In this document: positions 4,144 through 17,252 of the stretch, piece by piece
Layout: each line of letters begins with the position of its first letter
Position numbering within the stretch: the stretch's first letter is position 1
Origin: Deltaproteobacteria bacterium
GTDB lineage: Bacteria; Desulfobacterota; Desulfobacteria; Desulfobacterales; Desulfobacteraceae
Assembly (NCBI GenBank): GCA_003647385.1
Contig: QMMT01000007.1
Coordinates: forward strand, 1-17,252
Direction of reading: 5' to 3'
DNA length: 17,252 nt
Made by a program: the position numbers and the translations under genes
Notes under the pieces: model-generated
What the model saw: the letters and a program-made list of their open reading frames with translations, nothing else
What the model was told of the DNA's origin: nothing
The model's database searches: none

Positions 4144-4159
4144 TGGCATACTACTTGCT
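4144..4159 (+). promoter_or_regulatory. Sigma-54 (-24/-12) promoter for the TPR protein and FlrC-like regulator
   Basis: TGGCAT-ACTAC-TTGCT matches the -24/-12 consensus TGGCAC-N5-TTGCA at all invariant bases, with GG and GC correctly spaced. Transcription should start near 4170, about 47 bases before the ATG at 4217. It lies in the 222-base gap after the FleQ-like activator gene, which is a natural candidate regulator. Confidence 0.88.
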
Positions 4160-4216: not shown

Positions 4217-6829
4217 ATGAGTAAACCAAATTACAAATCACATCAGTTGTTTAAAGGATTGCAAGTCCTGATTTTATCACTTCTCGTGTTCCATTTTTCA
4301 TCACATATTGCAGTGGCAAAGCAGGCAGTGATGAAGAAAATTTTGATACAGGCAAATCCATTGGCTGTAAAATTTTTTGTGACCCAAAATATTCCCGTTA
4401 AAGTCATCCAGGTTGAAAAAAGAGAGCTTTTGGTTGCTTTAAAAAATGTGAAATTAGAAAAAGGCTTCAAGATATTGGGAAAAGAAAAATCAGCCATTAA
4501 GCATGTTGCTCTGGAAACCCTGCAGGGCAATGTGATTGCTGTTGTTTTAACCAGTCATCAACCCTATGGAACTATTCGATCTGGGTTCAATAAAGCAGAT
4601 TCAAGCTTTACCGTTAACCTTGAAAAAAAGCCGGAAAAAACAGTGACCGTGCCGGAGCCGACTGTAAAAGAACTTGAAAAAAAACACAGTGCCCCGAAAG
4701 TAGTAAAGGGCTCGACACCCGATTCTATGAAAGGGATCCAAAAAGAAACAGCAAAAAAGGCTGTGACAGAGCCTGTAAAGGCAATAAAAAAAATATCACC
4801 TCAAAAGCCTGATCCGTTAAAGCCAATTCGTAAAATGGCATCAAAGGAACCTGTCAAAATAGTAACACCACCTGCCTATGCCCTGCATAGAAGGGAGCAA
4901 AGTAAGTATAAAGGAGATATCAGTGATCTTGCCCGCGCTATTGATGGATCTCAATGTGATTCGAAACAGATCGGCAATTCAATACTTCTTTTAAAAAAAG
5001 ATTTGTATGAAGAGGCGTTTGAGGTGCTGGATCAATATATTTTTCAGGAAAATTTTACCTGTCTTGAACAGGCATATTTTTTAAGAGCCTATGCATTTTA
5101 CAAAACCGTGGGAAAAGATGATTTTGCTCAATTAATGAAGGCTGAACGACTGTTTCAGGATGCATTGGTATCCTATCCTAAATCATCATTACTTGCCTAT
5201 GGATATTCTGCCATTGGAATGATTCAAAAAAAATTGAATAATGTTTCAGCTGCTGAAGGGTATTTTAATATTGTCAAGCAGGGGTATCTTACGTATTCGG
5301 GTCTTGCTGAGATCATGTATCATCTGGCAGAGATATATGACGAAAAAGGCTATCTGGATAAAGCATTAAGATATTATAAACAGGTCTTTGAAGATACGGT
5401 GGAGAACAACTATATACCCGATGCCGGGATTGGATATGGTAAAGCGCTTTTTAAAAAAAGACAGTACCTGGATTCATTGACGGTTTTAAATTATGTTGTG
5501 GCGTCTAATCCTAAAAAGGTTTATGATTCCTATGAGTTGCTGCTTCACATTGGGAATGCCAATTTTGAAGTGGGCTTAAGCAAAGCTGCCAGACAAACCC
5601 TTACTCGCGTGTTAAATTTATTCCCGCAGGTTGAAGGCCGGGATATTATTTTAAGTAAAATCGGTCATACCTATGGTATGGAAAATAATCAGGAAAAAGC
5701 CATTAAAATTTATGAACTGGTCAGGGAAAAATTTCCTGACTCCGAAGGATATGTGGCCAGTTCTATCGGGATTGCACGATATTTAAAAACAGACGAAGGA
5801 AAAATTGAAATTTATGAAATGATAAAAATTAAATTCCCTAAAAATAAATTTGCCAGAATTTCCATGATGCGCCTGGCAGAAATTTATCTGGCAACGGGTG
5901 AATACAATAAATGTATAAAAGAAATAGAACAATTATTATCGACACATCCAAGGGGGTTGCGGTACGAAGCGGTTAAGTTGATGCAAAAAGCTTATGAGGC
6001 CCTGTTTCAAAAACAACTTAAGTCAGATGACTATACAAAGGTGTTGAACCGATATGAATTTGAGCACGAAAGACTCGACAGAATGGGAAGCAGAAAAATT
6101 GCTTTTAGCGTCGGGCTTGCATATCTTGAAGCAAAATTATTTGAAGAATCATTTAATCATTTGATTAATGCGTACAAACAATATAAAAGATCTTCAAGAT
6201 CATCACAATTGCTTTTCGGGTTAGGTGTAGCAATGGATGAGTCCGGCAGGGATGACGATGCATTAAAATTATTTAATGCATTCTCAAAAAGATTCCCTAA
6301 AAATAAACATCGAGTAGAAACGCTGTCACGGGCAGGAGATATCTATCTTGAGAAAAAAAAATATAAACGGTCTTCAGCAAAATTTAAGGAAGCATTCAAA
6401 ATTTCAAAAACACACCTTGATAAAGGAAAGATTTTAATTTTGCATTCAAATGTATATGCAAAAAAGGGAGATCTGAAAACTGCGTCCCAATTCCATGAGA
6501 AGGCAATAAAAGAAATTGCTTTGGCACCGGGTGAAAATTATGAAATTTTAACGGATGCATATAAAGAATTGGGGCAAACATATATATCTTTGAAAAAATA
6601 TATAAAAGCTGCTGATGCTTATTTGAAAGCATTAAGTTTTTCAAAAAATGATCGGGAAAAGGCAAACCTTGGATTTCTGCTCGGGGATGCATATCAAAAG
6701 GGAAATATTATTCCAAAAGCCAAAGAGGCATTTAAACAGGTGGTTGCATCTTATGATTCAGTGTGGGCAAGACTTGCCCAGCATCGACTGAATACATTTG
6801 AATTAGCTCAGATGGTTCAAAGCTCTTAG
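4217..6829 (+). CDS. Large exported TPR-repeat protein (possible flagellar motor scaffold)
   Basis: An 870-residue protein with no assigned family name. It begins with a basic stretch and a hydrophobic segment (about 12-34) that reads as a signal peptide or anchor, so it is probably periplasmic. Residues about 40-138 are beta-rich and resemble an AMIN-like domain. Residues about 138-225 are a Lys/Pro/Glu low-complexity linker. From about 250 to the end there are many degenerate tetratricopeptide repeats (for example AEIYLATGEYNKCIKEIEQ, and LGQTYISLKKYIKAADAYL near the C-terminus). It contains few cysteines; C247 and C282 flank the first repeat. It is the first gene after a sigma-54 promoter and lies 25 bases before a flagellar regulator, so a flagellar role is likely. 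The order beta-domain, linker, TPR superhelix resembles Campylobacter PflA, a periplasmic stator scaffold; this is inference. No strong ribosome site precedes the ATG. Confidence 0.88.
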   Translation: MSKPNYKSHQLFKGLQVLILSLLVFHFSSHIAVAKQAVMKKILIQANPLAVKFFVTQNIPVKVIQVEKRELLVALKNVKLEKGFKILGKEKSAIKHVALETLQGNVIAVVLTSHQPYGTIRSGFNKADSSFTVNLEKKPEKTVTVPEPTVKELEKKHSAPKVVKGSTPDSMKGIQKETAKKAVTEPVKAIKKISPQKPDPLKPIRKMASKEPVKIVTPPAYALHRREQSKYKGDISDLARAIDGSQCDSKQIGNSILLLKKDLYEEAFEVLDQYIFQENFTCLEQAYFLRAYAFYKTVGKDDFAQLMKAERLFQDALVSYPKSSLLAYGYSAIGMIQKKLNNVSAAEGYFNIVKQGYLTYSGLAEIMYHLAEIYDEKGYLDKALRYYKQVFEDTVENNYIPDAGIGYGKALFKKRQYLDSLTVLNYVVASNPKKVYDSYELLLHIGNANFEVGLSKAARQTLTRVLNLFPQVEGRDIILSKIGHTYGMENNQEKAIKIYELVREKFPDSEGYVASSIGIARYLKTDEGKIEIYEMIKIKFPKNKFARISMMRLAEIYLATGEYNKCIKEIEQLLSTHPRGLRYEAVKLMQKAYEALFQKQLKSDDYTKVLNRYEFEHERLDRMGSRKIAFSVGLAYLEAKLFEESFNHLINAYKQYKRSSRSSQLLFGLGVAMDESGRDDDALKLFNAFSKRFPKNKHRVETLSRAGDIYLEKKKYKRSSAKFKEAFKISKTHLDKGKILILHSNVYAKKGDLKTASQFHEKAIKEIALAPGENYEILTDAYKELGQTYISLKKYIKAADAYLKALSFSKNDREKANLGFLLGDAYQKGNIIPKAKEAFKQVVASYDSVWARLAQHRLNTFELAQMVQSS

Positions 6830-6854: not shown

Positions 6855-8222
6855 ATGCCGGGACATAGAATTTTTATTATACTTGAAAATCCTAAGGAGA
6901 GAATGGAATATGTCCGGTTTTTTGAGGACCTTGGTTTTTTGGTAGATGCTACCCCTGATGGCTCGAATGCACTCTCATATCTTATCGAGAAAAAACCGGA
7001 TGTGGTCATTGCAGATATTGGAACGCCCTCTTTTTGTGCCAGTGAGTACTTAAAAAAAGTTGACGAAGCCAAACTCCTGTGCCAGACCATTATTCTTACA
7101 GCAGAGCCTGTTGTTGAGCACGCGGTAAATTTAATGAAACTTGGTGCCCTGGATTATTTAATCAAGCCTGTTGAAATAGAACAGCTTGAGTTGAGTACAA
7201 AAAGAGCATTGCTGGCATCGAAACCAAAACTTCTTCCCAAAAAGGTGTCGCCGTCACATCATAAAAAAGTTCAAATCATTACCCGGGACAAAGGTATCCA
7301 AAAGCTTTTCACCCTGGCGTCAAAAGTTGCTAATTCAAGTGCTTCCATATTGATCCAGGGAGAAAGCGGCACGGGTAAAGAACTGTTTGCAAAATATATC
7401 CATGAAAAGAGTGACAGATACAATAGACCGTTTGTCGCAGTAAACTGCGCTGCATTGCCGGAAAATCTTCTGGAAAGTGAACTTTTTGGTCATGAAAAAG
7501 GTGCCTTCACCGGCGCCATATCAAGAAAGACCGGTAAATTTGAATTGGCACATAAAGGGACCCTGTTTTTAGATGAGATTACGGAGATGCAATTTCATCT
7601 TCAGGCAAAACTGCTCAGGGTCCTTCAGGAAAAGGTTGTGGACCGGGTTGGCGGAACCGAACCTGTTGATGTGGATGTCCGGGTGGTTGCCACAACAAAT
7701 CGAGATGCAAAACAGGCCGTTGAAAAAGGTGATTTCAGAGAAGACCTTTTTTACAGATTGAACACTATTCCCCTGGTCATTCCGCCTTTGAGAGATCGAA
7801 AAGGAGATCTTGAAGTACTTTGTAATTTTTTTGTTCAAAAATATTGTAAAATTGACGGCCGTCATGTCAAAGGCTTGACAAAACGGGCTGTATCCCTCCT
7901 TAGCCGGCATTCCTTTCCCGGCAATGTTAGAGAACTTGAAAATATTATTCACAGAGCAGTCCTGCTTGCAGATTCTGATTTGATCGAACCCAATGATCTT
8001 CTCATCGATGGAGTGGAACAAAAGGATGATTTGACTGGCCCGGATGCTGATCAGGGCGTTGGCCCTGAACCCAGTTCATTAAAAGAGATGGAACAGAAAA
8101 TGATTTTTAAAACCCTTGACCAAACCGAGGGTAACAGAACCCATGCTGCAAAAATTCTGGGTATCAGTGTCCGGACCCTTCGAAATAAACTCAATGAGTA
8201 TAAAGAAAAAAAACTGATTTAG
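6855..8222 (+). CDS. FlrC/FleR-like sigma-54 response regulator with degenerate receiver
   Basis: A 455-residue activator with the order receiver, AAA+, Fis helix-turn-helix, as in FlrC/FleR/FlgR, which turn on rod, ring and hook operons. The receiver (about 4-120) keeps D54, T82 and K104, but the usual acidic pair is replaced by E11-N12 (IILENPKE), so metal binding and phosphorylation may be altered. Walker A is GESGTGKE (169-176), GAFTGA is 216-221 and Walker B TLFLDE is 236-241. The C-terminal segment 409-455 contains LGISVRTLRNKLNEY, typical of the FlrC/FleR class. AAGGA at 6838-6842 precedes the ATG by 12 bases. A partner histidine kinase (FlrB/FleS) would be expected beside it but is not in the window. 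It lies immediately before the flgB operon promoter, its most likely target. Confidence 0.92.
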   Translation: MPGHRIFIILENPKERMEYVRFFEDLGFLVDATPDGSNALSYLIEKKPDVVIADIGTPSFCASEYLKKVDEAKLLCQTIILTAEPVVEHAVNLMKLGALDYLIKPVEIEQLELSTKRALLASKPKLLPKKVSPSHHKKVQIITRDKGIQKLFTLASKVANSSASILIQGESGTGKELFAKYIHEKSDRYNRPFVAVNCAALPENLLESELFGHEKGAFTGAISRKTGKFELAHKGTLFLDEITEMQFHLQAKLLRVLQEKVVDRVGGTEPVDVDVRVVATTNRDAKQAVEKGDFREDLFYRLNTIPLVIPPLRDRKGDLEVLCNFFVQKYCKIDGRHVKGLTKRAVSLLSRHSFPGNVRELENIIHRAVLLADSDLIEPNDLLIDGVEQKDDLTGPDADQGVGPEPSSLKEMEQKMIFKTLDQTEGNRTHAAKILGISVRTLRNKLNEYKEKKLI

Positions 8223-8270: not shown

Positions 8271-8311
8271 AAGATAATATTCTTAAATTTTAACTCATAT
8301 TGAGAGGAAAA

Positions 8312-8722
8312 ATGGCAGATTCAAGAATTTTTGGGCATACATCAAAGATGATTGGAAAGGCACTTGATGTGTCAGTCAGGCGGCATAATTTGATTGCAGG
8401 CAATATCGCTAATATGGATACCATTGGCTTTAAGCCTTCGGACCTTGATTTTAACGACACTCTCAAACGGGTCATGAAAGAAGATGAGCCTGAATCTTTA
8501 GATAAAACCCATATTAAGCATTTGTCGGCAGATAATGAAGACCGGTTCGCAATGAACGGGAAGAACAGTGAAGAGGTTGATATCTACCACCTTGATTCCG
8601 TCAATATTGACACTCAGATGATGAACCTTATGGAAAATAATATTAAATATCGGTCAACAACAGAAATGTTATTAAGGAAAATACAGATGCTGAACTATTC
8701 AATTGATGAGGGAGGTAAATAA
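8312..8722 (+). CDS. flgB: Flagellar proximal rod protein FlgB
   Basis: FlgB forms part of the proximal rod that joins the MS ring to the distal rod; it is exported by the flagellar type III system and so has no cleaved signal peptide. The N-terminal flagellar rod motif NLIAGNIANMDTIGFK (starting about residue 27) is intact. At 136 residues the length is normal for FlgB. The ATG at 8312 is chosen over an in-frame TTG at 8300 because AGAGG at 8303-8307 lies between the two. It is the first gene of the operon behind the sigma-54 promoter at 8228-8243, and flgC follows after 3 bases. The C-terminal helix (MMNLMENNIKYRSTTEMLLRK, about 105-125) is the typical rod-polymerisation helix. Confidence 0.96.
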   Translation: MADSRIFGHTSKMIGKALDVSVRRHNLIAGNIANMDTIGFKPSDLDFNDTLKRVMKEDEPESLDKTHIKHLSADNEDRFAMNGKNSEEVDIYHLDSVNIDTQMMNLMENNIKYRSTTEMLLRKIQMLNYSIDEGGK

Positions 8723-8725
8723 TTC

Positions 8726-9223
8726 ATGGATCTTTTAACGGCAGCAAAAATCAGCGGGACCGCCCTTGCAGCTCATCGAACCAAGATGAATGTTATTGCT
8801 GAAAATCTTGCGAATGTTGATACCACACGAACAAAAGAGGGTGGACCCTATCGCAGAAAAATGGTTGTTTTTAAAGGGGACGATATTGATTCTTTTAAAA
8901 GTATTATTGAAAAAAAGCAATTAAAGAAAGTGCAGTCGGGAATTGAGCTTTCCCCCATTGAGTTTGATTCTGACAAAAAAGAAGACAAGGGAACCGGGGT
9001 AAGAGTTGATCAGATTGTGAGGTCCCAGGAGAATTTCAGGATGGTTTACAATCCAGCCCATCCCGATGCCGACCTTGATACCGGCTATGTGAAGATGCCC
9101 AATGTGGACCATTTGACGGAAGTGGCTGATATGCTGGTGGCTAAACGAAGCTATGAAGCAAGTGTTACTGCTCTTTCCACCACAAAGGATATGGTTTTAA
9201 AAGCACTTGAAATTGGTAAATAA
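8726..9223 (+). CDS. flgC: Flagellar proximal rod protein FlgC
   Basis: FlgC is the second proximal rod subunit. The N-terminal motif NVIAENLANVDTTRTKEGGPYRR is diagnostic, and the C-terminal part shows the conserved NPAHPDAD...GYVKMPNVD run and the final helix ending near ALEIGK. At 165 residues it is longer than the roughly 135-residue enteric form; the extra length lies in a Lys-rich central stretch (about residues 50-90, around SIIEKKQLKKVQSG and DSDKKEDKG), probably a surface loop. GGAGG at 8711-8715 supports the ATG. It is tightly linked to flgB (3 bases) and fliE (16 bases). Confidence 0.96.
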   Translation: MDLLTAAKISGTALAAHRTKMNVIAENLANVDTTRTKEGGPYRRKMVVFKGDDIDSFKSIIEKKQLKKVQSGIELSPIEFDSDKKEDKGTGVRVDQIVRSQENFRMVYNPAHPDADLDTGYVKMPNVDHLTEVADMLVAKRSYEASVTALSTTKDMVLKALEIGK

Positions 9224-9239
9224 GAAAAGGTGAGTTAAG

Positions 9240-9530
9240 ATGATGGAGATAAAGGGGATTAATAGAATTTCTTTAAATACCGAGTCTCTGAGTAATAAAA
9301 TAAACAGGCGTGACGATGAGTTTGCACAGAGAATTAAAGCTGCTGTCAAGGATGTGAATACAAATCAGCATATTGCAGATGATTCCATTGAAAAAGTGAT
9401 TCAGGGAGAAATGGGTATTCATGAAGGAATGCTGGCTATTTCAAAAGCGAATACATCCTTGAAACTTCTTGCACAGGTCAGAAATAAGATCATGGCCGCA
9501 TATAACGAAGTCATGCGGATGCAGGTATAA
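9240..9530 (+). CDS. fliE: Flagellar hook-basal body protein FliE
   Basis: A 96-residue protein. FliE is the junction subunit between the MS ring (FliF) and the rod. Its C-terminal helix has the family pattern IHEGMLAISKANTSLKLLAQVRNKIMAAYNEVMRMQV, here about residues 60-96, and the length is normal. AAAGG at 9226-9230 lies 9 bases before the ATG at 9240; a second ATG follows directly and would change only one residue. It lies between flgC and fliF, the usual order in flgBC-fliE-fliF operons. Confidence 0.94.
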   Translation: MMEIKGINRISLNTESLSNKINRRDDEFAQRIKAAVKDVNTNQHIADDSIEKVIQGEMGIHEGMLAISKANTSLKLLAQVRNKIMAAYNEVMRMQV

Positions 9531-9558
9531 TATGGATATAATGGAGTGATTTAAGTTT

Positions 9559-11265
9559 ATGAATCCTGTTATTGAAAGAATAATTACAACACTTAAAGAA
9601 TTGCCACTGTCTAGAAAAATTGCTTTAGGCGTTTTTGCAATGGTGCTTGTAGCAGGGTTTAGCACCCTGTTTGTCTGGGCAAACAAGACCCAGTTCGATG
9701 TGGCTTATAAAGGACTTTCAAAGGATGATGCTGCATCGGTTGTAGATAAACTTAAGGAGTCCAACACACCCTATCGCCTCACAGGGGATGGTACCACCAT
9801 TATGGTTCCGGAAGATATTGTCTATGACGTCCGGCTTTCAATGGCAAAAGAGGGGATTCCCAAAGGAGGGGGCGTTGGGTATGAGATATTTGATAAAACG
9901 GAGTTCGGCACCACAGAGTTTGTTCAAAAGATTAATAAAAAAAGAGCCATCCAGGGAGAGTTAGCCAGAACCATCAGTGCGTTTGATGAAGTCAAAACTG
10001 CCCGTGTCATGATTGTGCTGCCAAAAGACTCGGTATTTGTTGAAGAGATAAAAAAACCGTCAGCATCTATTCTTTTGGAGTTAAACACTGATCTTGAAAA
10101 AGAAAATATCACAGCCATTGCCCATCTGGTGGCAAGTTCCATCCAGGACTTAACCCCGAAACTTGTTACCATTGTTGATACAACAGGCAGAATTCTTTTT
10201 GAGGGAAAATCAGAAGAAGAACAGGCCAAAATAACGGCTCAAAATTTTGCAGATGCCCAGTATAAGTATAAAGTCAGGTTTGAGGAAAATCTCACCAAAA
10301 GAATTCAGACCATGCTTGAGAGAATTGTCGGAACGGACAAGGCCATCGTAAGAGTGACATCTGAAATGGATTTTTCAAAAAATGATATGAATGAAGAAAT
10401 CTATGATCCATTTGAACGGGGGGGAGAATTTACCAGAAGCCGGAAAAATAGAGCAGAAAAGGTCATAACAGCATCCCAGGAAGTTCCAACGCCGTCCAGT
10501 GTGAATCCTATTGTAGGTGATGAAGGGCTTGCAGGGGATCAAAATAATGAACGGGTAAATAAGAGTGATGATACCGTTAATTATGAAATCAGTAAACGCA
10601 TTCGGGAAACCCAAAAACCCATGGCGGTTTTAAATCGTCTTTCTGTTGCGGCTGTTGTGGATGGGAAATATGAATTTAAAACCGACGAAAATGGTAATAA
10701 AAGCCGTGTTTATGTGCCAAGATCCCCTGCGGAGATGAAGCAATTTGAAGATATTGTCGTTAAAGCCATGGGGTATAATGAAGACAGAAGCGACCAGGTC
10801 TCCATGGAATGTTTTCCGTTTGCCTCCATCGCTGAGATTGAGGCGGAACCAGCTCTTACCGGGTTGAAAATGGTGCAAAAAGAGTATGGCAGAACCATTG
10901 CAAATCTACTCTTAGTATTATTATTATTTCTTTTTGTTATACGGCCCATCGTAAAAACTGTGAAGGATATTAAAACAACAGTTGACCAGGAAGCCTTACC
11001 CGGGCCTGAAGACAGGGCCTTGATTGAAGAAGAGGAAAAAGAACCTGAATTCATTGAAATGGACGGTAAACAGCAAAAAGAATACCTGGAACTGCTGCCG
11101 GATGATCAAAAAGAGGCGTTCTTAAAGGAGATGAACAATAGAGAACGGAATTCTTATTTTACCAATATGTCTGTGAATGAAAAAGCAAAATATTATGCCC
11201 GGAAAGATCTTTACAAGACGGTTAATATCCTTAAGGGCTGGATAAGCGAAGTAGAGGAGGAATAA
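9559..11265 (+). CDS. fliF: Flagellar MS-ring protein FliF
   Basis: FliF builds the MS ring in the cytoplasmic membrane, the base on which rod, switch and export gate assemble. The 568 residues show a first membrane helix at about 20-41 (ALGVFAMVLVAGFSTLFVW), the ring-building YscJ-like domain with KGLSKDDAASVVDKL and the PKDSVFVEE segment, a large periplasmic region, and a second membrane helix at about 446-463 followed by IRPIVK. The acidic cytoplasmic tail ends with YKTVNILKGWISEVEEE, the FliG-binding helix. Length is normal. GGAG at 9543-9546 is 12 bases before the ATG, slightly long. fliG follows after 2 bases, as expected for partners made in equal number. Confidence 0.97.
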   Translation: MNPVIERIITTLKELPLSRKIALGVFAMVLVAGFSTLFVWANKTQFDVAYKGLSKDDAASVVDKLKESNTPYRLTGDGTTIMVPEDIVYDVRLSMAKEGIPKGGGVGYEIFDKTEFGTTEFVQKINKKRAIQGELARTISAFDEVKTARVMIVLPKDSVFVEEIKKPSASILLELNTDLEKENITAIAHLVASSIQDLTPKLVTIVDTTGRILFEGKSEEEQAKITAQNFADAQYKYKVRFEENLTKRIQTMLERIVGTDKAIVRVTSEMDFSKNDMNEEIYDPFERGGEFTRSRKNRAEKVITASQEVPTPSSVNPIVGDEGLAGDQNNERVNKSDDTVNYEISKRIRETQKPMAVLNRLSVAAVVDGKYEFKTDENGNKSRVYVPRSPAEMKQFEDIVVKAMGYNEDRSDQVSMECFPFASIAEIEAEPALTGLKMVQKEYGRTIANLLLVLLLFLFVIRPIVKTVKDIKTTVDQEALPGPEDRALIEEEEKEPEFIEMDGKQQKEYLELLPDDQKEAFLKEMNNRERNSYFTNMSVNEKAKYYARKDLYKTVNILKGWISEVEEE

Positions 11266-11267
11266 TT

Positions 11268-12281
11268 ATGGCTGATCCCATAGACCCTGAAAGTATATCC
11301 GGTCCACGAAAAGCCGCTATTTTTTTAATGGCCATGGGAGAGGAATATGCCACCAAAGCATTTGAAAAAATGAATGAACTCGAAATCAGTGATGTGGCAT
11401 TTGAAATGTCATTAATAGACTATATTACCCCTGAAATGTTAAAGGCGGTTTCCCTGGATTTTGTAGATCAATTTGAGGGTGAATCAAAAATGATCATAGA
11501 GAGTGATTCGTTTATTAAAAATGTTGTTAAAAAGACGTTGAAAGATAAAGAAGCCGATGCCATTCTTGATGATCTTGAGAAGAAAAAACAGGATAAGCCG
11601 TTTATCTGGAGCCGGAATGTGAATGTGGGAACACTTGCCGGCTATGTGGAAGGAGAGCATCCTCAGACCATTGCAATGATTCTTGCCCATATGCCGTCTG
11701 AAATATCATCAGATATATTGATGTCTCTTCCTGAAGAACTCAAAGGGGATATTGCCATGCGAATTGCAAGGCTGGGTCAGATTTCAGAAGACGTTGTTCG
11801 GGACGTCGACAGGGCGTTAAAATTGGAGCTTTCCGGTGCTGTGGGCCCGGGAGGAAAGGCCGGTGGGTTGCAGGTGCTTGTGGATATTATCAATGGGGTG
11901 GACAAGACAACAGAAGATATGGTCATGGAATTTGTTGAAGAAGATAATCCAGAAATGGCCAATGACATTCGTAACCTGATGTTTGTATTTGAAGACCTGA
12001 CAAGTATTGATGATACGGCAATGAGAGAGATCCTCAAGAAAGTTGAGGGACAGCAGTTGACATATGCACTTAAGACGGCAACAGATGAAATGAAAGAAAA
12101 GATTTTTTCCAATCTTTCTCAACGAGCGGGCGAAATGCTTAAAGATGATCTTGATGCAATGGGTCCTGTCCGTCTGGCAGAAGTTGAAGAAGCTCAGCAG
12201 GCAGTTGTCCGTGCCGCAAAAGAGCTTGAGGCTGATGGAACGATAACGCTTGGAAAAGGAAAAGACGATGTCCTTGTCTGA
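11268..12281 (+). CDS. fliG: Flagellar motor switch protein FliG
   Basis: FliG is the rotor subunit that receives torque from the stator and joins FliF to FliM. The 337 residues have the N-terminal FliF-binding part (SGPRKAAIFLMAMGEE, about 11-26), the middle domain with EHPQ (130-133), and a C-terminal domain whose charged helix (around SQRAGEMLKDDLDAMGPVR) keeps the Arg and Asp-Asp residues known to work with MotA. GAGGAGG at 11254-11260 is an excellent ribosome site. The 3' end overlaps fliH by 14 bases. Confidence 0.97.
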   Translation: MADPIDPESISGPRKAAIFLMAMGEEYATKAFEKMNELEISDVAFEMSLIDYITPEMLKAVSLDFVDQFEGESKMIIESDSFIKNVVKKTLKDKEADAILDDLEKKKQDKPFIWSRNVNVGTLAGYVEGEHPQTIAMILAHMPSEISSDILMSLPEELKGDIAMRIARLGQISEDVVRDVDRALKLELSGAVGPGGKAGGLQVLVDIINGVDKTTEDMVMEFVEEDNPEMANDIRNLMFVFEDLTSIDDTAMREILKKVEGQQLTYALKTATDEMKEKIFSNLSQRAGEMLKDDLDAMGPVRLAEVEEAQQAVVRAAKELEADGTITLGKGKDDVLV

Positions 12282-13236
12282 TATCAAGAATGAGAAATTT
12301 GAACCCATTGATGTAAGCTCTTTAGATAGTTTTGATGAAGAACACTCAAACAATATGGATAAATCCGATCCGGATTTTGATCGATTTAAAATGCTGTTTG
12401 AAAAGCCGAAGTTGGAGAAAGAAAAATCCCATGAATTTGAACCGATGTATGATGTTAAAGAAGAACTCGAAGAAATTATTTTCAAGCCTTTAATCAAAAG
12501 AAATGACGAGCCTTTTGAAAAAGATGACACGAATACAGAAAACCAAAGTTCTAAAGGCAATGGATTATCTGAAAAAGAAGATCGTAAAGAGCCGGAAGAA
12601 ACCCCGGAAGAAAAAGGATATCGTGAGGGGTTTGAGAAGGGTCTTGAACAAGGAACTAAGCAGGGGCATGAAGAAGGATTAAAAAAAGGTGAAGCAAAAG
12701 GGCATGGAAAAGGGGAACAGCAGGGAATAGAAAAAGGAGAGAAACAGGGGTTTGAACAAGGCCTCAAGGACGGTGAACAAAAAGCCACAAACGAAACCCG
12801 GGAAAAAGGAGTTGAGATTATAAGTTCACTTGAAGAATCCTTAAAGAAAGCAGATCAAACTTTGGATTTGCTGGTTGAAAAGTATGAAGAAAGGATTATT
12901 TCCCTTATTCAACAGATTGCCGAAAAAGCGGTTATGGCCCAGATTGAAATAAATGATGAAATTGTTAAAAATTTGATCCTGGATGCATTAAAAGCGCTGG
13001 TTAAACCCGAAGAGGTGGTATTAAGCGTCTGTCAGGACGATTATGATTATATTGATATGATTAAAGATGAGTTTTTTGAAGTGATTGATTCATTAAACAG
13101 TGTGTCAGTGAGATCAGATGCTTCTATTAAAAGGGGCGGCTGTAAAATTGATACCGTCACAGCTTCTATCTCAGCAGACCCGGAATCAAGACTTGAAGCC
13201 ATCTTTGAAGCCATTAAAAAGGTTGGGGCTAAATGA
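12268..13236 (+). CDS. fliH: Flagellar export ATPase regulator FliH, with a long GxxxG segment
   Basis: FliH binds FliI, holds it inactive and docks it at the export gate in the cytoplasm. At 322 residues it is longer than the roughly 230-residue enteric form. Residues 1-115 are acidic and low in complexity. Residues 117-169 have a Gly at every fourth position without a break (14 glycines, 13 consecutive GxxxG units). The C-terminal half (about 180-322) is the conserved FliH/YscL domain, with a helix (IISLIQQIAEKAVMAQIEI) followed by LILDALKALVKPEEVVL. The ATG at 12268 is chosen because AAGGA at 12256-12260 lies 7 bases before it; the upstream TTG at 12250 precedes that site. It overlaps fliG by 14 bases and fliI by 4 (ATGA), which suggests coupled translation. 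Confidence 0.95.
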   Translation: MSLSDIKNEKFEPIDVSSLDSFDEEHSNNMDKSDPDFDRFKMLFEKPKLEKEKSHEFEPMYDVKEELEEIIFKPLIKRNDEPFEKDDTNTENQSSKGNGLSEKEDRKEPEETPEEKGYREGFEKGLEQGTKQGHEEGLKKGEAKGHGKGEQQGIEKGEKQGFEQGLKDGEQKATNETREKGVEIISSLEESLKKADQTLDLLVEKYEERIISLIQQIAEKAVMAQIEINDEIVKNLILDALKALVKPEEVVLSVCQDDYDYIDMIKDEFFEVIDSLNSVSVRSDASIKRGGCKIDTVTASISADPESRLEAIFEAIKKVGAK

Positions 13237-14585
13237 CCCTGGGACACTTAAATGAAATTGATTTTGAGAAATATGATCTGGCTGTGGATCAATGTATCAC
13301 GATACAGCCCGAAGGAAGGGTTTCTCAGATTGTTGGACTGATTGCAGAAGGCGATAGCTTAGGAATGGGTATCGGAAGTCTTTGCAGCATTATCAATGAT
13401 CATGGTCAACAAGTAAAAGCTGAGGTTGTAGGATTTAAAAAGGAAAAAGCGTTATTTATGCCCTATGGAGATATCCGGGGGATCAGTCTTGGTGCCAGGA
13501 TTATTCGGGTTGAATCATCTCAGGTGGTGGGTGTTTCAGATCAACTTTTAGGAAGAGTGATAGACGGAATGGGGGTACCCATAGACGGTAAAGGCTCAAT
13601 TGAGTCTGCACAAGAGTACAATTTGTATGGAAAACCCATAGGCCCTATGGAAAGGGAGCCCATTAAAGAATCTCTGGATGTTGGGGTGGCAGCCATCAAC
13701 AGTTTGATTACCCTTGGCAAAGGCCAGCGTGTTGCCATTATGTCAGGCTCAGGGGTTGGCAAAAGTGTTTTGATGGGAATGATGACCAGGCATACCAGTG
13801 CTGACGTAGTGGTCATTGGTCTTATCGGGGAAAGAGGCCGGGAAGTAAAAGATTTTATAAATGATACTTTGGGAGAAGAGGGATTGAAAAGAGCGGTTGT
13901 GGTTGCAGCGACATCTGATTCTCCTCCTTTGGTGAGAATAAGGGGTGCGTACCTTGCCACCACCATAGCCGAATATTTCAGGGACCAAGGCAAAGATGTA
14001 TTATTGATGGTGGATTCCATCACTCGCTTTGCCATGTCCTCAAGAGATGTGGGACTTGCTGCCGGTGAACCGCCGACATCCAGGGGATATACCCCGTCCT
14101 TTTTCGTTCAGATTCCTGTCCTGCTTGAACGGGCTGGAAATATGGAAAACGGGGGATCAATTACCGGTATTTACACGGTTCTGGTCGAGGGAGATGACTT
14201 AAATGATCCTGTCGGAGATACGGTTCGATCCATTGTTGACGGCCATATTGTATTGTCAAGAGATCTTGCCAACAGGGGCCATTATCCTGCCATTGATGTG
14301 CTGGCCAGTATTTCAAGGGTCATGCGGGATGTGAGCCCAAAAGATCATGTGATTGTAAGAGATAGAGCAGTCAGTGTATTATCTTCATACTCAAGTGCGG
14401 AAGATATGATTACTATCGGCGCGTATATAGACGGATCAGATCCTGATGTTGATGAGGCAAAGCGTTTGATGCCGGGGATTGTACAGTTTTTAAGGCAGGG
14501 CATGGATAGGAAGGTCGATATGCAGTCCAGTATCAAGGGGTTAAAAAGAGTCCTGGGTATAAAAAAGGACAAAAAAGAGAAATAA
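13233..14585 (+). CDS. fliI: Flagellum-specific export ATPase FliI
   Basis: FliI is the hexameric ATPase of the flagellar type III export system, related to the F1 beta subunit. In 450 residues (normal length) it shows Walker A GSGVGKS (172-178), the GLIGERGREVKDF segment, Walker B in LLMVDSITRFA, and the strictly conserved run AGEPPTSRGYTPSFF. The start ATG 13233 overlaps the fliH stop (ATGA), so translation is likely coupled. fliJ begins on the base after its stop codon. The fliH-fliI-fliJ order is the standard export-ATPase set. Confidence 0.97.
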   Translation: MTLGHLNEIDFEKYDLAVDQCITIQPEGRVSQIVGLIAEGDSLGMGIGSLCSIINDHGQQVKAEVVGFKKEKALFMPYGDIRGISLGARIIRVESSQVVGVSDQLLGRVIDGMGVPIDGKGSIESAQEYNLYGKPIGPMEREPIKESLDVGVAAINSLITLGKGQRVAIMSGSGVGKSVLMGMMTRHTSADVVVIGLIGERGREVKDFINDTLGEEGLKRAVVVAATSDSPPLVRIRGAYLATTIAEYFRDQGKDVLLMVDSITRFAMSSRDVGLAAGEPPTSRGYTPSFFVQIPVLLERAGNMENGGSITGIYTVLVEGDDLNDPVGDTVRSIVDGHIVLSRDLANRGHYPAIDVLASISRVMRDVSPKDHVIVRDRAVSVLSSYSSAEDMITIGAYIDGSDPDVDEAKRLMPGIVQFLRQGMDRKVDMQSSIKGLKRVLGIKKDKKEK

Positions 14586-15035
14586 ATGAAACGGTTTGAA
14601 TTTAAATTGCAGCCTTTGCTTAATTACAGACAATACCTGGAACGGCTTGCCCAGCAGAATACAGCCAGGGCTCACATGGATGTGAGGCTCTGTGAAAAAC
14701 AAATCACTGACTTGAAGCAGGCATATGTTCAAAATGCTGATAAAATTGAAACAATTGTGACAAAGGGTATTCGTGCTTCTAAATTTAGACAATACCATCA
14801 ATATCTTGATTCAGTAGAAAACAGTATAGAAGATGAAAAATCAAGAAAAATTGATTTAAAGAAAAATCTTCAAAAAAAATTATTGGAGTTAAGAAAAAAG
14901 AGTGTAGATAAAAAGGCAATGGAACTTTACCGTGAAAAATTGAAAGCCGATTACACTCAGGAAGTTATAAAAAACGAACAAAAAGAACTGGATGAGATTT
15001 CATCTCTAAAAACAGCAAGGACAAGATCTAAATGA
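14586..15035 (+). CDS. fliJ: Flagellar export chaperone / ATPase stalk FliJ
   Basis: FliJ is a small two-helix coiled-coil protein that fits into the FliI ring, like the gamma stalk of F1, and links it to FlhA. The 149 residues are highly charged and helical. The beginning FEFKLQPLLNYRQYLE and the later ELYREKLKADYTQE...KELDEI segment are typical of the family, whose members diverge strongly in sequence. The ATG follows the fliI stop with no gap and overlaps the next gene by 4 bases (ATGA). No separate strong ribosome site is seen, so it probably depends on coupling with fliI. Confidence 0.92.
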   Translation: MKRFEFKLQPLLNYRQYLERLAQQNTARAHMDVRLCEKQITDLKQAYVQNADKIETIVTKGIRASKFRQYHQYLDSVENSIEDEKSRKIDLKKNLQKKLLELRKKSVDKKAMELYREKLKADYTQEVIKNEQKELDEISSLKTARTRSK

Positions 15036-15649
15036 GACGGTTTCATAACATCATATTTTTCCTTGGTATTTGTTTGGTATTCTCAGCATTTTTAGGATAT
15101 CAAAAATATTATTCTTCGTCTTTTAATGGGACGATGGCTTTTGCAGAAGATGAAAAAAAACAAGACAAAGAGGATGGTGAAACACAAGATGATAATCCCT
15201 GTCCTGAATGCCCGGAGTGTCCTGATCCTGCCAAGGTCATATTGCGGGGTCTTGAAGATAAGAAAATAATGATAGAAAAACAGCAAAAAACCCTTGCCCA
15301 GGAAAAAAAAGAACTTGAAATATTTGAAGAACAGATTGACGAAAAACTTGAAAGCCTGAAGGCGTTAAAGAAACAAATCAAAGATGATATAGCAAGCCTT
15401 ACGGAAACGAAAACCCGGAAAGAACAGGAAAAAGAAGCTGCATATGAAGCCAAAATCGGGAGACTTGTAAAAATGTATGCAGGAATGAAACCGAAAAGTG
15501 CTGCCCAGATTGTTGATAAGATGAAGCTTGAGGTCGCCCAGGAAATATTTTTAAGAATGCGTGAAGCATCGGCCTCCCAGATCCTGTCTTTTGTTGACAG
15601 TGAAAAAGCAGCCAAAATCAGCGAGCGCCTTGCCTTTAAAAGAAAGTAG
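15032..15649 (+). CDS. MotE-like membrane-anchored coiled-coil protein (MgtE N-like domain)
   Basis: A 205-residue protein. It has an N-terminal membrane segment (about 5-23) and a short acidic stretch containing three cysteines spaced by three (C57, C60, C63, in a CPECPEC motif). A long charged coiled coil follows (about 70-145), then a C-terminal domain (about 148-203) with the MgtE-N pattern VKMYAGMKPKSAAQIVDKM...AQEIFLRMREASASQIL. Proteins of this build commonly follow fliJ; MotE in Sinorhizobium acts as a periplasmic chaperone for MotC. Role here: probably a periplasmic motor-assembly or stator factor anchored in the inner membrane. The family resemblance is clear; the exact function is inferred. 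It overlaps fliJ by ATGA and appears to be the last gene of the flgB operon. Confidence 0.85.
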   Translation: MRRFHNIIFFLGICLVFSAFLGYQKYYSSSFNGTMAFAEDEKKQDKEDGETQDDNPCPECPECPDPAKVILRGLEDKKIMIEKQQKTLAQEKKELEIFEEQIDEKLESLKALKKQIKDDIASLTETKTRKEQEKEAAYEAKIGRLVKMYAGMKPKSAAQIVDKMKLEVAQEIFLRMREASASQILSFVDSEKAAKISERLAFKRK

Positions 15650-15701: not shown

Positions 15702-15798
15702 AAACTTGTTAGACAGACCAATAGACAAGAATATTTTAATACGCAAATTGATTGACCAATTCATTTTATCCAACAGATTCAGAACAGGAGAAATCAGC

Positions 15799-16650
15799 AT
15801 GAAAAGGATATTGACAAGCATTTTACTGATCGTATTTTTTGCCGGCGCTGTATCAGCACAACAACTGACCGGAACCCTTCAACAGGTTGAAAAAACAGGG
15901 GAAATCAAAATTGGGTATCGCCAGGGTCTGCCCCCCATGTCTTTTCTGGACAAAGACGGTATCCCTATCGGGTATTCCGTTGATCTGTGTAAAAATATTG
16001 TGAAACAAATAGAAAAAAAATTGGGCAAAGACATAAAAACCGTTTGGGTTCCTGTGACAGGTGGAAATCGGTTCAAGGCCATATCTGACAATAAAATTGA
16101 CATATTGTGCGGCTCAACCACAAAAACACTCTCCCGGGGTGAACTTGTAGATTTCACACAGCTGACCTTTGTTACCGGTGCTTCTTTCATGACTCTGAAA
16201 GGAAGAAACATCAAAGGTAATTTTACCGGAAAGAAAATTGGCGTCTCAAAAGGCTCGACGACTGAAGCAGAGTTAAGAAAGCTGTTCAAAGAAACAAAAG
16301 TTGATGCCAAAATCGTATTGTTGGATTCTGCTGGTATCGGTTTTCAAAAATTGGAAAAAGAAAAGATTGACGCACTGGCCGCAGATCAGGTCGTCCTCAT
16401 GGGCTTTGCCCTGACCGGGAAAAATCCCGGGAACTATACTATTCTGCCGAATCTGTTCTCCTACGAACCGCTTGCCCTGGCTGTCAGACGAAACGACTCC
16501 GATTTCCGTCTGATCGTGGACATGGCGATATCGGATATGTGCCGATCAAATGAGATATTAAACATCTATGACAAATGGGTCGGCAGATTTATCGGTCAAA
16601 GATTATCGGCATTTGAGGCACTGGTCAAACTGAATGCCATACCGGAGTAA
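15799..16650 (+). CDS. Periplasmic amino-acid-type solute-binding protein (SBP family 3)
   Basis: A 283-residue secreted protein. Residues 1-20 form a clear signal peptide (KR, a hydrophobic core, then a GAVSA cleavage site). The mature part has the family 3 binding-protein fold pattern: IKIGYRQGLPPMSFLDKDG near the start, GYSVDLC, a ligand-binding segment with GSTTKTLSRGELVDFT that keeps the Arg usual for binding the amino-acid carboxylate, then IGVSKGSTTE and ALAADQVVL. It resembles glutamate/aspartate binding proteins, but substrate cannot be fixed from sequence. CAGGAG at 15785-15790 lies 8 bases before the ATG at 15799, which also gives the proper signal peptide; a frame open from TTG 15706 would add 31 residues without purpose. 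No permease or ATPase genes are nearby. Codon use, especially after about 16380, is visibly more C/G-ending than in the neighbours. Confidence 0.92.
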   Translation: MKRILTSILLIVFFAGAVSAQQLTGTLQQVEKTGEIKIGYRQGLPPMSFLDKDGIPIGYSVDLCKNIVKQIEKKLGKDIKTVWVPVTGGNRFKAISDNKIDILCGSTTKTLSRGELVDFTQLTFVTGASFMTLKGRNIKGNFTGKKIGVSKGSTTEAELRKLFKETKVDAKIVLLDSAGIGFQKLEKEKIDALAADQVVLMGFALTGKNPGNYTILPNLFSYEPLALAVRRNDSDFRLIVDMAISDMCRSNEILNIYDKWVGRFIGQRLSAFEALVKLNAIPE

Positions 16651-16961: not shown

Positions 16962-16977
16962 TGGCATGATCATTGCT
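16962..16977 (+). promoter_or_regulatory. Sigma-54 (-24/-12) promoter before the probable fliK
   Basis: TGGCAT-GATCA-TTGCT has the invariant GG and GC at exact spacing and is nearly the same as the promoter at 4144-4159. Transcription should start near 16988, about 28 bases before the ATG at 17016. Confidence 0.88.
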
Positions 16978-17015: not shown

Positions 17016-17252
17016 ATGAATTTACCTTTTGCAAATGTTAGCAAATCTTTTTTAAACATGGTTCAACAGGACGTCCCGCGGGAAGTTATGTCTAATACAG
17101 ATAATACCGGTCCGCAAAAGCAGATGTTTGCAGAAGAGTTAAGCAAAACACTTGAAAAAATAGAGCATCATGAAAATGAAGCATCCCTTCAAACAAAATC
17201 GGGACAGACTAATCAGGCACAGGTAAATCAACTTCAGGCAAGCGAAGATTCC
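17016..17252 (+). CDS. fliK: N-terminal fragment of a probable flagellar hook-length control protein FliK
   Basis: An open frame of 79 codons from ATG 17016 runs off the right edge of the window without a stop. AGGTG at 17007-17011 lies 4 bases upstream as a ribosome site. The visible part is polar and Gln/Asn/Ser/Glu-rich (for example QTNQAQVNQLQASED), like the low-complexity N-terminal half of FliK, the secreted ruler that sets hook length and switches export specificity. The diagnostic C-terminal domain is outside the window. The name rests on this composition, on its own sigma-54 promoter, and on the usual order fliJ, motE-like, fliK, flgD. It could be another secreted flagellar protein. 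Confidence 0.6.
   Translation, partial: MNLPFANVSKSFLNMVQQDVPREVMSNTDNTGPQKQMFAEELSKTLEKIEHHENEASLQTKSGQTNQAQVNQLQASEDS

Follow-up and report, generated by a model that had tools for sequence, protein, structure and literature searches.

PflA of Campylobacter jejuni and Helicobacter pylori, a spoke of the motor scaffold with FlgY and PflB as partners, is described as an AMIN-like β-sandwich followed by a flexible linker and 16–17 TPRs (PMC11870540). In C. jejuni, the C-terminal part of PflA is described as lying towards the motor axis, with FlgY contacted by the spoke at its inner end, and the PflA head as gripping PflB at the rim. According to PMC11870540, a preprint that is apparently the Feng et al. 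study cited by the review PMC13023049, 66% of the 1,365 flagellated species surveyed have a FlgY homologue, and in about 52% TPR proteins lie near flagellar genes, being mostly single-copy and nearer to PflA than to PflB. The review treats FlgY, MotE and FlbB as one E-ring family, whose genes mostly adjoin fliJ, fliK or both, and gives PflA, MotC/MotK and FlcB as the TPR partners of this family. It also describes a C. jejuni flgY deletion in which motility remains, so that the pairing of a TPR protein with FlgY need not be essential.

Another described member of this group is MotK, which is found with MotE in the Fla2 system of Cereibacter sphaeroides. MotK carries an AMIN head that is most like AmiC, then PilQ, with TPRs after it, and is described as interacting with MotB2 and MotE; AMIN domains in general are described there as binding or localising to the cell wall (PMC10954123).

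Here we analysed a 17,252-nt stretch of DNA from the order Desulfobacterales (the window), which encodes an AMIN-linker-TPR protein of PflA/MotK-like layout within a flagellar gene cluster. That about half of flagellated species have PflA-like TPR proteins next to their flagellar genes has been published as a general idea, and the supplementary tables of that preprint may cover the source species or its near kin (PMC11870540). A search of the literature on flagellar motors of Desulfo- species and Desulfobacterota, periplasmic TPR proteins and the E-ring returned no report on this protein in titles and the starts of abstracts.

Domain layout and fold of the TPR protein

The TPR protein is encoded at positions 4217–6829 of the forward strand, from an ATG start, and comprises 870 residues, in agreement with the coordinates, frame and length of the original prediction. 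Its AlphaFold2 model, built from 38 sequences, has a mean pLDDT of 84.7 and consists of a helix at residues 7–31, nine strands at 37–137, a stretch with pLDDT below 50 at 140–211 and helices at 237–869. An N-terminal export signal is predicted at residues 1–34 (4217–4318) from a charged start, a hydrophobic stretch and AVA ahead of residue 35, all read from the sequence, and from the modelled helix 7–31; by these features, the protein would be exported to the periplasm. It is followed, also on the forward strand, by an AMIN-fold head domain (residues 35–140; 4319–4636), a disordered Lys/Pro linker that contains the lowest conservation blocks of the protein (residues 140–211; 4634–4849) and a TPR solenoid that is delineated by the model helices and Pfam TPR families (residues 237–869; 4925–6823). 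The β-rich AMIN-like head, the Lys/Pro linker and the long TPR solenoid proposed earlier are thus all recovered, and the predicted fold contains both the β domain and the TPR superhelix.

At E 0.001, 158 relatives were found, which makes the protein more than a chance ORF; the best 120 share 51–100% identity over 77–100% of the query. The named relatives belong to Desulfobacula, Desulfobacter, Desulfotignum and Desulfospira, and the Pfam families TPR_14 and TPR_16 both matched in 36 of 36 aligned relatives from the order.

The Pfam AMIN model (PF11741) gave no match to the TPR protein at E 1 and none to its first 240 residues at 0.01. With Pfam silent, the AMIN assignment of the head is settled by the fold search. 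Modelled alone, the head reached a pLDDT of 92.2 and adopts an AMIN fold, with AmiC and then PilQ as best matches, the same order as for MotK and for CC_2058/CC_2059 of Caulobacter. PflA was not among the matches listed in these head-only searches, and no Foldseek match fell below E 0.001. In one relative (L149), a head found by the window-type head profile passes the Pfam AMIN model, with 24.5 bits against a cut-off of 20.5.

When the whole model was compared with 350,542 PDB chains using Foldseek, chain 9hmf_K ranked first (E 1.5e-14), followed by unrelated TPR proteins with E values of 1e-12 to 1e-11. The alignment extends over 884 columns for a chain of 773 residues, with TM-scores of only 0.30 and 0.33 and an rmsd of 41 Å. 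We take the full length of PflA to be 788 residues and infer that chain K is PflA, since its 773 residues fit PflA from residue 16 on. Entry 9HMF is the C. jejuni periplasmic motor scaffold, modelled from residue 16. Among the best 50 VIA-align rows for the whole model, 9hmf was absent and TPR-only chains dominated. Sequence searches of PDB chains, either with the TPR protein itself or with its 38-row profile, returned generic TPR proteins, and PflA was absent from the best 60 in each case. The firm match to PflA and MotK is the order of the parts, and homology to PflA is putative. The PflA-like succession of β-sandwich, linker and TPR superhelix, as originally predicted, gains backing from the first rank of 9hmf_K, at TM-scores of 0.30/0.33.

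Across the order, the best-kept blocks lie in the TPR body at residues 451–570, and conservation is lowest in the linker. The last 30 residues are also conserved above the mean (1.70 versus 1.42 bits), and the head and linker are less conserved than both of these regions. As the inner end of the C. jejuni spoke meets FlgY, the conserved C-terminus fits an inner-end contact, without proving it. Three cysteines, C247, C282 and C566, are invariant in all 38 closer relatives. Of the 36 order relatives, 21 have both C247 (4955–4957) and C282 (5060–5062), and the other 15 have neither. Because they are kept or lost together, these two cysteines may form a disulfide where the TPR body begins.

The flagellar cluster and its E-ring candidate

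A pattern scan of both strands of the window found two sigma-54-type elements, at 4144 and 16962. One of these, TGGCATACTACTTGCT (4144–4159, forward strand), lies 57 nt ahead of the ATG of the TPR gene, for which a sigma-54 promoter had been predicted. Of 53 TPR orthologues, 36 likewise carry the pattern in the 400 nt ahead of the gene, compared with 0.5% of mononucleotide shuffles, and the TPR gene may accordingly be read as a candidate for sigma-54 control. The other element (16962–16977, forward strand) precedes a fliK-like ORF on the same strand, named by position only, which has its ATG at 17016 and runs off the window.

Beginning 25 nt past the stop of the TPR gene, a response-regulator sigma-54 activator is encoded at 6855–8222 (forward strand). 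It was identified with Pfam and NCBIfam and is FlgR/FlbD-like, with the FlbD and FlgR models scoring below their cut-offs. The two genes are probably co-transcribed, and the pairing of the TPR gene with a flagellar regulator is as originally described. This pairing is not universal, as in three loci of the order (L070, L090 and L100) no FlgR-type match separates the TPR gene from the flgB that comes after it. At two further loci (L190 and L010), fliF follows the TPR gene, and the regulator, flgB, flgC and fliE are unmatched in between.

The ORFs of flgB, flgC, fliE, fliF, fliG, fliH, fliI and fliJ extend over 8300–15035 on the forward strand. The FliF_C domain matched at 10315–10821 and fliJ was identified by Pfam and NCBIfam; the other names are given from sequence and gene order. 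On the 5′ side of the TPR gene, the window holds a response regulator with an HD domain, PilZ, CheX, CheY and a sigma-54 activator in which no receiver was matched. The source assembly (3.07 Mb, 611 contigs, 81% complete) contains stator (MotB_plug) and FliL matches; Flagellin_N found no match in this 81% complete genome.

Directly after fliJ, an ORF at 15032–15649 (forward strand) encodes a FlgY/MotE/FlbB-like E-ring candidate with an N-terminal hydrophobic stretch, a coiled coil recognised by eye and an MgtE_N-like end. It matched NCBIfam collar_FlbB at E 8e-8 and Pfam MgtE_N at E 6e-4. Its coiled coil, MgtE_N-like end and location between fliJ and a fliK-like gene resemble those of the FlgY/MotE/FlbB family (COG3334), from which it differs in scoring below both curated cut-offs (32.3 versus 110 bits for FlbB and 20.7 versus 25.9 bits for MgtE_N). 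In the alignment of the FlgY/MotE-like family, the FlbB model matched 33 of 34 members and MgtE_N 29 of 34 at E 0.01. The gene order fliJ, E-ring gene, fliK corresponds to that described in PMC13023049; in the window, a gene for a family-3 solute-binding protein (SBP_bac_3; 15706–16650) intervenes before the fliK-like gene.

This candidate, which the original prediction had not named, further backs the comparison with PflA, as both systems include a FlgY-type protein, which is a partner of PflA and a putative partner here. A TPR body and a MotE-type gene in the same flagellar cluster are likewise shared with MotK. There are also differences from these systems. MotK and CC_2058/CC_2059 belong to Alphaproteobacteria, where the genes lie after motA or motE, whereas the window gene lies upstream of flgB–fliF. 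Unlike in C. jejuni, no PflB is in sight in the window, where Pfam scans of ten ORFs revealed no second, PflB-like TPR gene.

Association with flagella and with the E-ring candidate across the order

Of the 291 genomes of the order, 138 were matched by a profile built from 38 relatives. Among these 138, 76 were regarded as strong TPR matches (E up to 9.8e-14, a cut set by eye), and the remaining weaker matches look like TPR cross-matches. FliF_C was found in 153 of the 291 genomes and in 73 of the 76 with a strong TPR match (Fisher p about 1e-21, uncorrected for kinship). The gene thus occurs together with flagella, in line with the original prediction, and not mainly in non-flagellated relatives. 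Wherever the listed fliF match was on the same contig as the TPR gene, it lay on the same strand, 0.9–5.1 kb downstream (63 of 63). The three genomes with a strong TPR match and no fliF match (G238, G264 and G199) are 85, 81 and 96% complete, respectively, and G199 has a FlgY/MotE-like gene. In the genus to which the window belongs, two genomes gave no fliF match (G228 and G263), and both also lack a strong TPR match.

A phylum-wide profile (A3) was rejected as an orthology test: it matched 288 of 297 genomes at 1e-10 and is too loose because TPRs cross-match. Its best 20 include 17 loci outside the order, 13 with a sigma-54 activator gene adjoining the TPR gene, which is suggestive only.

To compare the TPR gene with the FlgY/MotE-like gene, we used BLAST and profiles to annotate the fliF regions of 114 of the 153 fliF genomes (50 of the 73 that have a strong TPR match and 64 of the 80 that do not). 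A region was counted as informative if it showed fliJ and included 4 kb or more of upstream sequence (n = 88). Among these 88 clusters, 49 contain both genes, 38 neither, one the FlgY/MotE-like gene only and none the TPR gene only. The sole cluster with a FlgY/MotE-like gene and no TPR gene is that of G257 (L052), a near relative. This region has a short fliF, a split fliI and a FlgY/MotE-like gene interrupted by a stop, and it lacks the TPR gene; the flagellar cluster of G257 is decaying.

The 26 regions left out comprise four with both genes, 14 with neither, two with the FlgY/MotE-like gene only and six with the TPR gene only. In the two FlgY/MotE-like-only regions, fliF is preceded by just 972 and 2298 nt before the contig ends. 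The six others show the TPR gene alone because the contig ends before any fliJ is found, and each of these genomes has its strong FlgY/MotE-like match elsewhere, on a different contig. Whole-genome counts at fixed cut-offs point in the same direction and are less clean: among the 153 fliF genomes, 70 have both genes, three the TPR gene only, 16 the FlgY/MotE-like gene only and 64 neither. In nine of these 16 genomes, an order-level profile showed that the cluster does contain a TPR protein, either diverged or cut; the rest are two cut contigs, G257 and four whose regions lie outside the sample.

In a FastTree phylogeny of FliF+FliG+FliI from 111 clusters, with a midpoint root poorly supported at one side, the TPR gene changes state four times and the FlgY/MotE-like gene five times. 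Several of these changes are due to cut contigs or to the degraded G257. The two cluster types lie almost wholly apart on this tree, and the distribution of the two genes amounts to about one evolutionary split. The association therefore counts as few independent events, and the pair has been inherited together, not lost together many times over.

Looking at the individual flagellar clusters of the order (L051–L164), two types can be seen, one with the spoke gene and the FlgY/MotE-like gene and one with neither, in which a fliK-like gene follows fliJ. In most of the pair-less clusters shown, the ORF after fliJ is long and ends much like DYFA or DFFA, and we take it for FliK by its position. 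Among 36 named loci, fliJ was found in 26, and 25 of these have the FlgY/MotE-like gene. At the remaining one (L193), the FliJ-labelled ORF has 381 aa, and fliJ and the FlgY/MotE-like gene seem to be fused in it. The cultured strains Desulfobacter vibrioformis DSM 8776, Desulfobacter latus AcRS2 and Desulfospira joergensenii DSM 10085 all have the cluster, beginning with the regulators and reaching as far as the FlgY/MotE-like gene.

Proposed role of the TPR protein and exchange of its head

The domain layout, AMIN fold, TPR solenoid, gene neighbourhood, linkage to the FlgY/MotE-like gene and conserved promoter element were computed here. We consider it likely that the TPR protein is a periplasmic flagellar motor spoke of the PflA/MotK kind, which joins the E-ring to the wall or the stators, and we infer its partners, the assignment of its ends to them, its wall binding and its placement of stators as follows. 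Once exported into the periplasm, the protein would meet, through its inner C-terminal TPR superhelix, the outward coiled coil of an E-ring; this ring would consist of the FlgY/MotE-like protein whose gene follows fliJ. With its long linker, the protein could extend the AMIN head outwards to peptidoglycan and/or to stator units, and the spoke would keep the stators at a set radius round the MS-ring. It would be produced along with the other sigma-54-dependent flagellar genes and the FlgR-like regulator. The possible role in a periplasmic motor scaffold of sulfate reducers, raised in the original prediction, is supported as a reading, with the role itself assigned by analogy.

The outer end of the putative spoke varies. 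In a survey of 54 proteins of the order that share the TPR body, including that of the window, the head profile found a window-type AMIN-like head in 38. The other 16 comprise six with a Pfam AMIN head, five with a SPOR head (L054, L051, L065, L102 and L104), one with an SH3 head (L150), one with an NTF2-like Cds6_C head (L145) and three in which no head domain was matched. By leaf order in the FliF+FliG+FliI tree, the SPOR-headed proteins sit together. The SH3 and NTF2 cases are placed beside AMIN-type relatives, so that these two heads look like replacements. Literature on PflA and TPR flagellar motor proteins with a SPOR domain, searched by titles and abstract starts, gave no mention of such a head exchange. 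AMIN, SPOR and SH3 are all cell-wall-associated domains, which suggests wall anchoring as the shared job of the heads; the NTF2-like head does not fit this pattern. We tentatively propose that the spoke in this group may be tethered straight to the wall by an interchangeable wall-binding head, without a PflB rim. On this reading, the gripping of PflB by the C. jejuni head would be a later change.

The exchange of AMIN, SPOR and SH3 heads on the same TPR body could also mean that the protein is a wall anchor for the motor or the pole, held through its AMIN head and contacting neither stators nor E-ring. Given the co-presence with the FlgY/MotE-like gene in the clusters and the precedent of MotK, with its described interactions with MotB2 and MotE (PMC10954123), we regard this as highly improbable. 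Equally slim is the chance that the protein is an envelope TPR coordinator of the Tol-Pal CpoB/YbgF type, which acts on wall synthesis and lies beside flagellar genes by chance. The tol-pal YbgF model of NCBIfam (TIGR02795) scores it at 112.6 bits, above the cut-off of 90.1, so that automatic annotation may label it as such. The proteins also have TPRs and a sequence-read N-terminal export signal in common, and in its fold the head best matches the AMIN domain that belongs to a wall amidase. However, this 119-position model matches five stretches, as a repeat cross-match would, and the window protein is seven times the model length, bears an AMIN head and is encoded in a flagellar cluster. In addition, fliF is present in 73 of the 76 strong-match genomes, and the 38 informative clusters with neither gene, set against the 49 with both, tie the protein to a motor part.

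An assembly or checkpoint factor, which would sense or stabilise the growing rod/MS-ring at the wall and feed back on the FlgR-like regulator, would be in keeping with the tight pair of TPR and regulator genes behind one sigma-54-type site. A chaperone role has been considered for MotE and not excluded (PMC13023049). On the other hand, the regulator match is missing between the TPR gene and flgB at L070, L090 and L100, and the domain layout is the same as that of proven motor scaffolds; we therefore consider such a factor unlikely.

As a motor spoke, the TPR protein would form a new branch within a type described only recently, and would not represent a novel sort of machine. Work on the E-ring-and-spoke scaffold has centred on Campylobacter, Helicobacter, Borrelia and a few alphaproteobacteria, and the scaffold would now extend to sulfate reducers, with a precise gene pair. 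The exchange of heads amounts to a natural experiment, in which it can be asked what the spoke holds at its outer end. Moreover, the flagellated Desulfobacterales are indicated to split into those whose clusters have the scaffold and those whose clusters do not, so that motors of both types could be compared in related species to see what the scaffold adds.
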